Notes under the pieces: generated by a model | Seen by the model: the letters and a program-made list of their open reading frames with translations, nothing else | Told to the model about the DNA's origin: nothing | Database searches by the model: none | Shown here: positions 14,879 to 37,884 of the stretch, piece after piece | How positions within the stretch are numbered: the stretch's first letter is position 1 | Layout: each line of letters starts with the position of its first letter | NCBI RefSeq assembly: GCF_021044585.1 | Contig: NZ_CP087998.1 | Coordinates: 1,116,001-1,180,000 of the forward strand | Reading direction: 5' to 3' | Length of the DNA stretch: 64,000 nt | DNA from: Sulfurimonas sp. HSL-3221 | Lineage (GTDB): Bacteria > Campylobacterota > Campylobacteria > Campylobacterales > Sulfurimonadaceae | Translations under genes and position numbers: made by a program

Positions 14879-15020
14879 ACCGAAGAGGGGAAATAGCACT
14901 CGCACATGGAAACGCCCCCTTCCTACGCCGTTCCAGGGTAAGAAATGCTGTAAAAATGGCGAAAAACAGTGCGGAAAAGCGACCTTTGATGAAGAGAATA
15001 CGAACAATGCAGCGTCATGC

Positions 15021-15433
15021 GGCGGCTTTCAAAGAGCGCTCAGTGCCAATTTTCGATTTTATTGAATGCGCTTCGACGAGTCGAAGCTCTTTTTTTGACG
15101 TTAGCTTCGGGTTGCCGAAGCGCATTAATCAATAGGCTCAGTGTCGTTAAGCGTGCCTTGAAAGCCGCCCTGAAGGCATAAAGCCGAGAAGGGCGAGCGA
15201 TTCGCGCAACGACGATTTTCTTTTGGTTCTTTTCTTATGAAAAAGAAAAGAATGAATAGAGTGTATTCCTTTGCCACATTTTTAGAAAAAGTAGCGCAAA
15301 GAGCGGTCTTTCGCAAATCGCTCATAGGCTTCCGGGATGGCTTATAAGGAATGCTCAAGGCCAAGCCCCAATTGATTGGATGCGCTTCGGCGTGCCGAAG
15401 CTCTATATTTCCATTAGCTTCAGGGCCTGAAGC
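15021..15433. repeat. Palindromic repeat element A (structured modules)
   Basis: The element is built from modules. A partial module on the minus strand lies at 15021-15053, a complete plus-strand module at 15143-15252 and a decayed minus-strand module at 15258-15370. They are flanked by 16-18 bp palindromes of the type GCTTCG...CGAAGC at 15070-15087, 15104-15121, 15384-15401 and 15417-15433. In the complete module GTCGTT (15143) pairs with AACGAC (15208), GCG (15151) with CGC (15203), and CGCCCT (15166) with AGGGCG (15190). A 10-bp hairpin tip (15227-15252) follows. About 100 bp is nearly identical to 37782-37884. It lies between divergent genes. Confidence 0.88.
15070..15096 (+). terminator. 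Terminator-like palindrome at the left edge of element A
   Basis: An 8-bp perfect stem (GCTTCGAC 15070-15077 and GTCGAAGC 15080-15087) is followed by TC and a run of seven T. This is the canonical form of an intrinsic terminator on the plus strand, although no plus-strand gene lies immediately upstream. Confidence 0.55.
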
Positions 15434-15505
15434 GCGTTAATCAATATTCAGAAGCTCAGCTCGGTTTTGTTTAAACTTAATATAACATATGTAGTTATAT
15501 TGCGA

Positions 15506-16229: not shown

Positions 16230-16568
16230 GTGGAATGGAAAGTGGAGTTTTACACGGATGAGAAGGGCGCTAAACCGGTAAAAGAGTGGATGCTGGGATT
16301 GGAAGCGAGTGCCCGTTCTGCCCTGATGCGCAATGTGGATTTGCTGGAACGGATGGGCCTGGGCATACGCGAGCCCTATGTGAAGTATTTGGAAGAGAAA
16401 CTCTACGAAGTCAGGGCGAAAGACCGCAGTGGCATTTACCGGGTTATTTATTTTGCCCACACGGGAAAACGGTTCGTCCTTTTACACGGGTTTGTCAAAA
16501 AGACGCAGAAGACACCCCGAAAAGAGATTGAGATTGCGAAGCAACGGATGAGGGAGATGATGAAATGA
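16230..16568 (+). CDS. HigB/Gp49-like (RelE superfamily) toxin
   Basis: The 112-residue protein belongs to the phage Gp49-like branch of RelE toxins, which cleave mRNA, usually on the ribosome. Marks are WKVEFYTDEKGAKPVKEWM at the start, the middle YVKYLEEKLYEVRAKDRSGIYRV (substrate-groove strands) and the basic C-terminal FVKKTQKTPRKEIEIAKQR. It has a GTG start at 16230, with a near-leaderless arrangement behind the operator dyad. The toxin gene comes first and overlaps the antitoxin by 4 bp (ATGA), as in higBA loci. Confidence 0.9.
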   Translation: MEWKVEFYTDEKGAKPVKEWMLGLEASARSALMRNVDLLERMGLGIREPYVKYLEEKLYEVRAKDRSGIYRVIYFAHTGKRFVLLHGFVKKTQKTPRKEIEIAKQRMREMMK

Positions 16569-16837
16569 GTGAATTTCAAGATTTTTTGAAAGAGCAGTTG
16601 AAAGATGAAAAGTTCAAAGCGGAGTGGGACAGGCTGGAGCTGCGCTACAGGGTCATTGAGCAGATTCTGAAACTCCGCATGAAGTATGACCTGACGCAGA
16701 AGCAGTTTGCGGAAAAGGTCGGAACGACACAGGCCGTCATCTCCCGCATCGAAAACGGCAATGTTAACATCGGGATTGACTTTCTGGATCGTGTGGCCAA
16801 GGCGTTTGGGAAAAAAGTCGAAGTGAAGCTGATATGA
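16565..16837 (+). CDS. HigA-like XRE-family antitoxin
   Basis: The 90-residue protein has an N-terminal helical region that would cover the toxin, and a Cro/C1-type helix-turn-helix: MKYDLTQKQFAEKVGTTQAV and then SRIENGNVNIGIDFLDRVAKA. It would neutralise the upstream toxin and repress the operon through the dyad at 16186-16207. Its start overlaps the toxin stop. Its own stop overlaps the start of ywbE by 4 bp, so YwbE is translated from the same message. Confidence 0.92.
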   Translation: MSEFQDFLKEQLKDEKFKAEWDRLELRYRVIEQILKLRMKYDLTQKQFAEKVGTTQAVISRIENGNVNIGIDFLDRVAKAFGKKVEVKLI

Positions 16838-17041: not shown

Positions 17042-20014
17042 TTACTGTTTTGGTGATTTCTCCGTATACTCTTCGCTTTCTTCCGCCGCCATCATGGCGT
17101 TGCCGGAAATAGCATGGGCATAATTCGAAGAATTAGCCGCTTTCTCCGTAGAAGAACCGAGACTCCCTCCGCCATCATAGAACTTCTCTACAAAGCCCAT
17201 AATCTTACCTAGTACTCTCGGTACGATCTTTTTGCGTTCAAGCAGTTTCGGTTTGACGTTGAGCGTATTGGCGATGTCGTCTTTTAGCGGGGATCTGCCG
17301 TCATAGAGGTAGGTGTCGATGACCTTGTTGACTTCTGCTTTGTTGAGGTTTTCTTCCTCACAGAGCGCGTCGAAGGCTTTGATCTGCTCATCATCCCAGA
17401 ACTTTTCGAACGCATCGTCGATCAGGTCGTCGTCTTCGATGTGCATCAGGTGGTCGTCGATGAACTTCTCGATCAGCTCGCGTTTGCTGCGGAGGCTGGG
17501 CTGAGCGTTGATGATGCTGACGATGGTGTCACGCTGCTTCTGCTGCTCTTCTGTTTTTGCCTTTCTATATTTGGCCAGGAGTTTGAGGATATAGGCAACA
17601 TTGATCTCGTCCTTATGGATGAGCTCCAGTTCAAAGTCGATCTCCTGCAGGACAGAGACCTTTTCCGTTTCATTGCGGCTTTTGGCCCGCTCGTAGAGAT
17701 CAAGGTATTTGGACTTGTAGTCTTCAAAGAGTTGTTCCGCCATGGAGAGGTCGTTCCAGTCGAAGTCGGCAAAGCCCTCCAGAATATTTCTCACCCGCAT
17801 CAGTTCCCGGAATGCCTTGATGAATTCCAGCTGCTTCTCTTCGTCAATGATAGCATCAACGCTATTGATGCTCGGGGCAATGGCAATGAGCTTCGCGAAA
17901 GCCTCGTTGAACTTCTCGACGTACTCTTCGTAAGGCCCCATGAGAATCTTGTCTTTTTTATCTAAATCAGAGAAGAGGGCAATGGCATCGTCGGTCGCTG
18001 TTTTTAGGTTGCGGAAGCAGACGATATTCCCCTGCGATTTCGTCTCGCCCAGGATGCGGTTGGTACGTGAGAAGGCCTGGATAAGACCATGATATTTTAG
18101 GTTCTTGTCGACGTAGAGAGTGTTTAGGGACTTGGAGTCGAAGCCCGTGAGGAACATGTTGACGACGAGCAGGATGTCGACTTCACGCTGTTTCACCCGT
18201 TTGGAGATGTCGTTGTAGTAGTTGTAGAAGCTCTGGCTGTCTTTGGTGCTGAACTTCGTGCCGAACATAGCGTTATAGTCGTCAATGTACTCGTCGAGCT
18301 TCTCGCGGCTGTGCTTGTTGATGTGCTCTTCGTCCACTTTCGTCTCGTCGAAGTCGATCAGCCCGTTGGCGTCTTTGTCCTCCTCGTTGGCACTGTAAGA
18401 GAAGATCGTGGTGATCTTGAGGTCGTGCTTCTTGCTCTTGAAGGTCTCATAGTACTTAGTGAGCATGTCGACGCTGCCGACACACATCATCGCCGTAAAC
18501 TCTTTTGAGTGGGTCTTGCGCGGATGGAAGGAGAGGATGTAGTCGACGATCTTTTCAATCCGCACGGGGCTTTCCAGCAGCTCCTTGGTGTCGATGGCTT
18601 CTACTTCGATATCAAGCTCGTTTGCGCTCTCTTTTTCTTTGTAGCGCCCGATATACTCCACCGAAAACTTCAATACGTTGTCGTCGCCGATGGCGTCGGT
18701 GATGACGTAACGGTGCAGGCGCTCGCCGAAGAGGTCGGCGGTCGTGCGCTTGCCCAGCTTGTTTCCGACGGCGTTTTCTTCAAAGATGGGGGTTCCCGTA
18801 AAGCCTATCATCTGTGCCTTTTCGAAGAAGCGGGTGATGTTGCGGTGGGTCTCTCCAAATTGGCTGCGGTGGCATTCGTCGAAAATGAAGACGACGTGCT
18901 TGTCCCGCAACTGCTCCATCTCGTTTAGGTAGCGTGTTTTGCTGATAGCGGTGTTGAGCTTTTGGATCGTCGTGATGATAAGGTCGGTTTGGACGTGCTG
19001 GCCCTTTTTGTCTTTGTGGCGTCCGAGGAACTGGTCGACGAGGATCTTCGTGTTGTCCGTGCCGTCGACACTCCCTTCGGAGAAGCTGTTGAACTCTTTG
19101 CTCGTCTGGAAGTCCAGGTCCTTGCGGTCGACGACGAAGACGACCTTATGGACGTGGGGAAGCTTGACGAGAATCTGCGAAGCTTTGAACGAAGTGAGGG
19201 TCTTACCCGAGCCGGTCGTGTGCCAGATGTAGCCGTTTTTGTCGCTGTTCTGCACCCGGTCGATGATCGCCTCGACGGCATGGAACTGGTAGGGACGCAG
19301 CACCATCAAAATCTTCGGCACCTCCGCTAGCACGATGTACTTGCAGATCATCTTGGAAATGTGGCACCGCTCGAGGAAAACCGAGGTGAAGGCTTCGAGC
19401 TGGGTGATGTTGAGGTTCTCTTTGTCCGCCCAAAAGAATGTCTGTTTGAAAGTTTGTTTCTTGTTGTTGGCGTAGTACTTGGTGTTGACGCCGTTGGAGA
19501 TGACGAAGAGCTGTACGTAGTTGAAAAGAGCACTGTTGTAGCCGTAGGAGTGACGCTGGTAGCGGTTGATCTGGTTGAAGGCCTCTTTGAGCTCGACGCC
19601 CCGTCGTTTGAGCTCGATCTGCACGAGGGGCAGGCCGTTGATGAGCAAGGTGACGTCGTAGCGGTTCTTGTACTTCCCTTCGATTGTCACCTGCTGCGTG
19701 ACCTGGAAAAGGTTCTGGCACCAGTGTTCGGAATCCAAAAACTCGATGTAAGCCGTCGTGCCGTCATCCTTGGGCAGGGCGAATTTGTCCCGCAGGATCT
19801 TCGCCTTTTCGAAGACGTTGCCTTTGTTCAGATGGTTGAGGATGCGGCCGAACTCGGTATTGCTGAGCGAGGTTTTGTTGTGCTTTTCGAGCTGGCGCTT
19901 GAGGTTGGCTTTGAGGGCCTCTTCGTCCTGGATGATAACTTTTTCATAGCCCAGTTCTTCGTTGAGCTGCTTGACAAGATTGGCTTCGAGGACGGCTTCG
20001 GGTTGCTTACTCAT
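17042..20014 (-). CDS. hsdR: Type I restriction enzyme, R subunit
   Basis: HsdR is the motor and nuclease of a Type I restriction complex, translocating unmethylated DNA and cutting at a distance. The 990-residue protein has an N-terminal PD-(D/E)XK nuclease (YDVTLLINGLPLVQIELKR, with Asp, Glu and Lys, about 118-137). The SF2 translocase has TGSGKT (about 267), DECHRSQ (about 385) and GFTGTPIF (about 410), then a second RecA domain with VNMFLTGFDS and QAFSRTNR. The C-terminal helical region binds the HsdM2S core. It is the last gene of the locus on this strand and overlaps the preceding gene by 8 bp. Confidence 0.96.
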   Translation of the reverse strand: MSKQPEAVLEANLVKQLNEELGYEKVIIQDEEALKANLKRQLEKHNKTSLSNTEFGRILNHLNKGNVFEKAKILRDKFALPKDDGTTAYIEFLDSEHWCQNLFQVTQQVTIEGKYKNRYDVTLLINGLPLVQIELKRRGVELKEAFNQINRYQRHSYGYNSALFNYVQLFVISNGVNTKYYANNKKQTFKQTFFWADKENLNITQLEAFTSVFLERCHISKMICKYIVLAEVPKILMVLRPYQFHAVEAIIDRVQNSDKNGYIWHTTGSGKTLTSFKASQILVKLPHVHKVVFVVDRKDLDFQTSKEFNSFSEGSVDGTDNTKILVDQFLGRHKDKKGQHVQTDLIITTIQKLNTAISKTRYLNEMEQLRDKHVVFIFDECHRSQFGETHRNITRFFEKAQMIGFTGTPIFEENAVGNKLGKRTTADLFGERLHRYVITDAIGDDNVLKFSVEYIGRYKEKESANELDIEVEAIDTKELLESPVRIEKIVDYILSFHPRKTHSKEFTAMMCVGSVDMLTKYYETFKSKKHDLKITTIFSYSANEEDKDANGLIDFDETKVDEEHINKHSREKLDEYIDDYNAMFGTKFSTKDSQSFYNYYNDISKRVKQREVDILLVVNMFLTGFDSKSLNTLYVDKNLKYHGLIQAFSRTNRILGETKSQGNIVCFRNLKTATDDAIALFSDLDKKDKILMGPYEEYVEKFNEAFAKLIAIAPSINSVDAIIDEEKQLEFIKAFRELMRVRNILEGFADFDWNDLSMAEQLFEDYKSKYLDLYERAKSRNETEKVSVLQEIDFELELIHKDEINVAYILKLLAKYRKAKTEEQQKQRDTIVSIINAQPSLRSKRELIEKFIDDHLMHIEDDDLIDDAFEKFWDDEQIKAFDALCEEENLNKAEVNKVIDTYLYDGRSPLKDDIANTLNVKPKLLERKKIVPRVLGKIMGFVEKFYDGGGSLGSSTEKAANSSNYAHAISGNAMMAAEESEEYTEKSPKQ

Positions 20015-37412: not shown

Positions 37413-37884
37413 GCTTCGGTTCCCGAAGCGCATTCAATGAAATTAGGAATTGGCCTTGAGCGCTCTTTGTAAGCCATCCCGGAGGCATATAGCCGGGAGG
37501 GATGAGCGATTCGCGAAAGGCCGCTTTTTGCGCTACTTTTTCTAAAAAAGTGGAATGAACATTTTTCCTTTTCCTTTCTTTTTACAAAGAAACGAAACCA
37601 AAGAAAATCGTCGTTGCGCGAATCGCACGCTGCTCCCGGCTTTATGCCTCCGCAGCGGCTTTCAAGGCACGCTTAACGACCTTTCGCCTATTAAAGTTAT
37701 GCGCTTCGACGTGTCGAAGCTCGTATCAAGAGCTTTGTACTGACAAAGCGCATTCAAATCAATCGGAAGTTGGCCTTGAGCGCTCCTTGAAAGCCGCCCT
37801 GAAGGCATAAAGCCGAGAAGGGCGAGCGATTCGCGAAAGGCCGATTTTCTTTTGGTTCTTTTCTTATGAAAAAGAAAAGAATGA
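37413..37884. repeat. Palindromic repeat element B (structured modules)
   Basis: Three modules are seen: plus-strand at 37452-37560 (outer stem GGCCTT/AAGGCC, inner CATCCC/GGGATG), minus-strand at 37575-37680 (outer GTCGTT/AACGAC, inner CGCTGC/GCAGCG) and plus-strand at 37772-37884 (outer GGCCTT/AAGGCC, inner CGCCCT/AGGGCG). All keep the GGC-ATAAA/ATATA-GCC apex and the GCGATTCGCG stretch, and end in a long A/T hairpin. Palindromes at 37413-37429, 37703-37720 and 37732-37749 separate them. The element lies between convergent gene ends and includes no convincing coding frame. Confidence 0.9.

Follow-up and report, generated by a model that had tools for sequence, protein, structure and literature searches.

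The repeat at positions 15021-15446 of the window (the whole 64,000-nucleotide stretch analysed, C1:1116001-1180000 of the complete 2.52-Mb genome of Sulfurimonas sp. HSL-3221), designated element A, is an incomplete tandem array of a 308-bp unit, P-L-R-P, in which P is an 18-bp palindrome (GCTTCGN6CGAAGC) and L and R are homologous half-modules of about 115-130 nt each, lying in opposite orientation. We hold with moderate confidence that the family to which it belongs is a non-autonomous, BIME-like intergenic dyad repeat that has long stayed in the same places, its copies being homogenised by recombining with one another.

The first-pass annotation had described element A as a nested inverted array with palindromes at both ends; the alternating modules are real, but the array holds four palindromes and not one per end (Table 1). 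Its leftmost part is a truncated R end, with 15024-15069 being 84.8% identical to positions 83-128 of the R module, and an L stub extends the array to 15446. The AATCAAT borders ascribed to the palindromes are present where they had been placed. The L module of element A is 89.3% identical to the L reference and is matched by model R2 over 15142-15255 (62 bits). The suspected loss of part of the inner stem from the right-hand module was borne out, as this R module is 114 nt instead of the full-length 128 because one arm of the inner stem b is deleted, and it scores 50.3 bits, where every other R module in the genome scores 78.6-96.5. At the element A site of the complete congeneric genome G027, the R modules are full-length in both units, and the number of units itself varies, a single full unit being present here but two apiece in G027 and the further complete congeners G010 and G036. 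Within the window, GCTTCGN6CGAAGC with at most one mismatch occurred five times (four exact) against 0.47 expected, a count reached by none of 100 shuffles. Folding yielded z = -5.58 for 15015-15175 and z = -7.98 for an intact unit.

Table 1. Features of element A and of the second site of the family within the window.
Feature	Positions	Strand	Remark
Truncated R module, P-proximal end only	15021-15069	+	Orthologous stretch in G027
Palindrome P1, then TCTTTTTTT	15070-15087	.	Intrinsic-terminator-like on +
P-P linker TCTTTTTTTGACGTTA	15088-15103	+	Resembles linkers at other P-P junctions
Palindrome P2	15104-15121	.	
L module: stem a, nested hairpin b, GATTTTCTTTTGG, hairpin c	15122-15252	+	
Centre separating L from R	15253-15269	.	
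R module, L homologue inverted, one stem b arm deleted	15270-15383	-	
Palindrome P3	15384-15401	.	Terminator-like on +
Second P-P linker	15402-15416	+	
Palindrome P4 GCTTCAGGGCCTGAAGC	15417-15433	.	
13-nt stub of a further L module GCGTTAATCAATA	15434-15446	+	
Second window site P-R'-L'-P-L, own site 1153413	37413-37881	-	Convergent genes; P-L-R-P-P-L in G027 and G036

The first-pass proposal hinged on the existence of further copies, and a BLAST search of the HSL-3221 (own) genome returned 43 matches (E <= 0.01). Parsing of the stretches fetched around these matches, with L and R as queries, resolved 16 sites consisting of single copies or arrays. The palindrome pattern was found at 22 places genome-wide, compared with none for a reversed control pattern, and 21 of the 22 fall inside parsed sites, the exception being at 2083279. 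A whole-genome scan with a covariance model, itself built partly from ten own copies, detected 35 half-modules (E <= 0.01), one of them marginal, all of which lie at the 16 sites. These sites are clustered, with five of the 16 located inside 25 kb, a figure reached in 2 of 20,000 random placements. At the second window site, the outer L (37756-37881) is a hybrid, with an R-type stem a (GGCCTT/AAGGCC) and an L-type hairpin c. Elsewhere in the genome, the hairpin b loop of one L module carries a 290-bp insertion with inverted ends GGGTATATCTATAACCCC (C1:1709756-1710045) that is absent at the matching site in G010, G027 and G036; given five other genomic matches to it, this insertion looks like a separate MITE family.

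In every half-module, stem a encloses an internal loop and the nested hairpin b and is followed by an A/T-rich hairpin c, with GATTTTCTTTTGG standing between a and c in L; this paired structure carries compensatory changes. Of 219 candidate modules, 181 were retained by a stem-a filter and 70 of these were left once redundancy had been removed, from which 50 modules chosen by eye formed alignment A1, 20 of genus g14 formed A2, and 21 of the own genus and near relatives formed A3. The RNAalifold structure for the mixed alignment A1 was set aside, as misalignment of the two genera in the region of stem a kept that stem from being detected; separate alignments, A2 and A3, with handwritten structures overcame this. 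With structures handwritten from the very sequences on which the pairs were counted, 94.0% of cells were paired in A2 (85.2% when shuffled; 34-pair structure) and 97.0% in A3 (85.1% when shuffled), and 15 of 34 and 10 of 19 pairs, respectively, had changed on both sides. The covariation scores of 0.258 for A2 (0.115 shuffled) and 0.367 for A3 (0.148 shuffled) were each reached by none of 500 shuffles, a control that ignores relatedness. When partners were slid by 1-3 columns, pairing fell to 43.1-58.8% (A2) and 23.6-45.1% (A3), although this control flatters the structure because it was derived from the same sequences. G-U pairs were rare by hand count (15 of 630 paired cells in A2 and 6 of 387 in A3), and the first inner pair of P, across 133 copies, was AT in 64, GC in 62, GT or AC in 4 and some other combination in 3. 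The rarity of wobble pairs, together with the whole-pair changes, suggests that pairing may matter on the DNA or on both strands.

Occupation of sites is shared across species. The element lies between collinear flanks at 14 of the 16 own sites in at least one of G010, G027 and G036; of the two that remain, the left flank of 1521587 was not found, whilst 591499 is unoccupied in G036 and fell outside the fetched DNA in the others. More distant relatives also retain the element beside the same genes, as at own site 2245 in a Sulfuricurvum MAG (flanking protein 53% identical), 2247 in a Campylobacterales MAG (flanking proteins 96% and 75%) and 2275 in genome G050 (91% and 92%). Five own sites (1153413, 1510988, 2251607, 2275322 and 2284928) display clear reversals between species, and sites 1514012 and 1523166 differ between species too, but with genes inserted. 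At 2284928, similarity of the left flank in G010, G027 and G036 continues as far as the first base of P, and beyond it the unit is reversed in two of the three. Along 1.505-1.535 Mb of the own genome and the matching stretches of the three congeners, genes confined to some species lie between copies, among them those encoding a 269-aa protein (G010 and G036), a 1021-aa protein (G036) and a 1777-aa protein (G000), as if element sites were hotspots of gene gain and loss. A run of CTAAGTG tandem repeats at about 2243900-2244040 of G010:C1 adjoins an element site.

At some sites the sequence has been replaced as well as reversed. The units of site I2251 split by orientation into separate clades (each 100/99) in a tree of 47 units. 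Reversed orthologues at single-unit sites had a mean identity of 89.2% (15 pairs), compared with 93.0% for those in the same orientation (16 pairs), a contrast with a one-sided p of 0.001 in which the pairs are not independent and reversal is in part tied to which species are compared; the single-unit list was made by hand and includes B1153 and J2275, both with extra half-modules. Non-orthologous pairs averaged 87.0% (713 pairs). The contrast is limited to single-unit sites, because the averages over all sites do not differ (88.4% in the same orientation and 88.7% reversed); it may vanish there because multi-unit sites mix non-corresponding units, and where a site has several units, orthologues in the same orientation often resemble each other no better than random copies do. 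Own units 1521605 and 2284945, situated 763 kb apart, are 99.3% identical in the L-R core, an identity that begins at the inner arm of the left P and continues through the right P to its end. In-place inversion as the whole story was rejected on the separate clades of I2251 and the lower identity of reversed alleles.

The preferred reading, at about even odds, is that ectopic gene conversion or another copy-and-replace step is the agent of replacement. A donor copy would pair with its recipient in either orientation, since the ends are palindromic and the halves are homologous inverted repeats, and replacement and reversal would therefore occur together. More tentatively, the hairpins could function in the DNA itself or on both strands, and P, as a hairpin followed by a T-run, might signal the end of transcription in one orientation, which could render the repeat tolerable or useful between genes. 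No conversion event could be traced with certainty as to both its donor and its recipient. The clustering of copies far beyond chance is more than conversion alone would account for, and the original spread of copies requires some transposition-like step. A more speculative proposition, possible but in our view improbable, is that of an orientation-blind self-replacing repeat, in which any copy could overwrite any other in either direction at fixed intergenic sites and stems would be rewritten as whole pairs, from A-T to G-C with almost no wobble, as if template switching edited the palindromes. If this were true, the repeat would persist across genera without a transposase of its own.

A rival explanation, of which we are doubtful, is that of a miniature transposon moved in trans by some transposase, for example one acting on single-stranded hairpins, that lands preferentially beside or into existing copies, with precise ends at AGCTTCG...CGAAGCT. 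The ends of IS200/IS605-type elements carry conserved hairpins, and those of the present family would suit such a mechanism, as would the precise unit ends at P in reversed alleles, the nearly identical pair of distant own units and a site occupied or differently filled in another genus. Terminal inverted repeats, comprising P and the adjoining GCAT, are present at both unit ends, and in this respect the likeness to MITEs raised in the first-pass annotation stands; mobility of the strict MITE kind was not evident, and most sites are conserved across species, including some in more distant relatives. The target-site duplications that had been proposed as a check were not found, the comparable unoccupied sites all being refilled or too diverged, and the congener and g14 junction comparisons revealed no clean empty site. 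PF01797 (Y1 transposase, RAYT), the transposase family surveyed, was not detected in the own genome (E <= 0.01) and was absent from G010, G036 and G081; hence the RAYT gene that the annotation had suggested seeking was found neither in the own genome nor in G010 and G036. It was weak in G027 and present in G025, G062, G107 and G051, yet a model scan of the 24,737 bases fetched around the Y1 genes of relatives identified no module beside them, the sole match being one place, in two overlapping loci, at 16.9 bits. A true REP/BIME mobilised by a RAYT would account for the alternating inverted modules, the intergenic arrays and the variable copy number, but these results, along with untagged P flanks (GTAG or GTGG in one and a terminal CGTC in none of 266), render it extremely improbable, and a RAYT/IS200 origin was rejected for the own genome, as far as PF01797 can reveal one. 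The precise reversal between inverted repeats at five sites is also what a programmed invertible switch (phase variation) would generate, through a dedicated recombinase at inverted P sites; however, in a comparison of one assembly per species, reversed alleles also diverge in sequence and sometimes belong to other clades, unlike those of a pure switch, making this very unlikely.

Gene context bears on another explanation, which we consider rather unlikely, namely that the repeat is a structured RNA or transcription-end element (a bidirectional terminator or mRNA 3' stabiliser) selected at fixed gene ends, with mobility being secondary. Based on gene calls from a codon-score script, the 16 own sites comprised eight tandem, six convergent and two divergent gaps, with 14 touching at least one gene 3' end, whilst the full set of gaps longer than 60 bp in those regions comprised 47 tandem, 17 convergent and 25 divergent; in raw counts, convergent gaps represent 6 of 16 sites against 17 of 89 gaps. 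With its T-run, P is terminator-like by score twice in element A, at P1 and P3 (a region total of 3 versus 1.1 in shuffles), and the structure is conserved across genera. However, element A itself is located between divergent genes, an OmpA-family gene and radC, and the scarcity of G-U pairs in both A2 and A3 argues against a structured RNA, as does the finding that no Rfam 15 family matched the window at gathering score. Sub-threshold Rfam matches, mostly to miRNA- and snoRNA-type families, were chance-like and were discarded. Adjoining radC, a Gp49-like (PF05973) gene and an HTH gene (16230-16837) form a tandem, toxin-antitoxin-like pair, after which a type I restriction R subunit is encoded at 17042-20014.

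The unit was matched in 43 of 151 genomes of the family (E <= 0.001), representing 6 of 18 genera, with long, strong matches in eight of the 43, the own genome included (genera g1, g8 and g12). In genus g14 the halves are often head to head, and the matches, among those listed, cover mostly the L core around hairpin c. Across the phylum, model R2 matched at least 14 of 298 genomes (E <= 1e-4), a lower bound because scoring covered 12 candidates per genome out of roughly a thousand or more. The five loci read in family f4 (at least four genomes) contain half-modules of the same plan, mostly solitary, whereas four further genomes, all of family f7, yielded only short matches (49-62 nt of 118 model positions), which we take to be probably hairpin-only and do not trust. 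The repeat thus extends beyond the own genus and, in the form of solitary halves, into a second family of the order. At a convergent junction of g14, for which 13 of 25 loci passed the alignment filter, the element is present in 6 of the 13 species aligned, the others having a different hairpin repeat or a short spacer. Three loci at that junction (L163, L169 and L168) contain quite different hairpin repeats, two of which presumably resemble REP dimers of the CGTC type and the third another common repeat. Matches in Acidovorax and Planctomycetaceae contigs were found on reading to lack the element and were taken as chance matches to the core pattern. The plasmid, phage and viral collections searched gave no match, and literature searches returned no paper that we recognised as describing the P-L-R-P repeat.

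For the question of how REP-like repeats persist without a transposase, the family is a natural system with fixed sites, few copies and several complete congeneric genomes, in which visible reversals let replacement be dated against the flanking DNA. Editing of palindromes by template switching can be tested directly on the paired changes in P. A further caution to be drawn is that arrays of intergenic hairpins may arise by replacement on the spot and not by insertion.

Compared by description, the family resembles the BOX elements of Streptococcus, which are module mosaics with a variable number of the middle part, except that the unit here is dyad-symmetric. MITEs and PATEs (palindrome-associated transposable elements) are likewise short and non-coding with inverted or palindromic ends, as are the present copies, but no target duplication, empty site or partner transposase (PF01797 surveyed) was found here. 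Head-to-head dimers, intergenic location and the lack of a known dedicated transposase are shared with CGTC-tagged REPs, which are apparently without a transposase of their own and for which a Sulfurovum strain is named as host of both REP types (PMC3733652). Those REPs measure 20-40 bp with the CGTC tag unpaired, whereas the equivalent bases of the present modules are paired inside stem a, and CGTC is missing from many modules (R; genus g14). The likeness to BIME/REP arrays proposed in the first-pass annotation holds for the inverted palindromic modules, conserved linkers, tandem expansion and alternating orientation in extragenic arrays; a role in transcription termination has been suggested for BIMEs (PMC2817692). 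It does not extend to the tag, module size or RAYT: in place of a 20-40 bp palindrome with a GTAG or CGTC foot tag, the modules are of ~115-130 nt with nested stems a and b and a separate A/T-rich hairpin, no GTAG or RAYT accompanies them, and 34-35 half-modules were found, compared with the more than 100 copies per genome usual for REP/BIME (PMC2817692). The family is BIME-like by form and behaviour, and is a seemingly new, larger, untagged family without a RAYT, rather than a REP in the strict sense.
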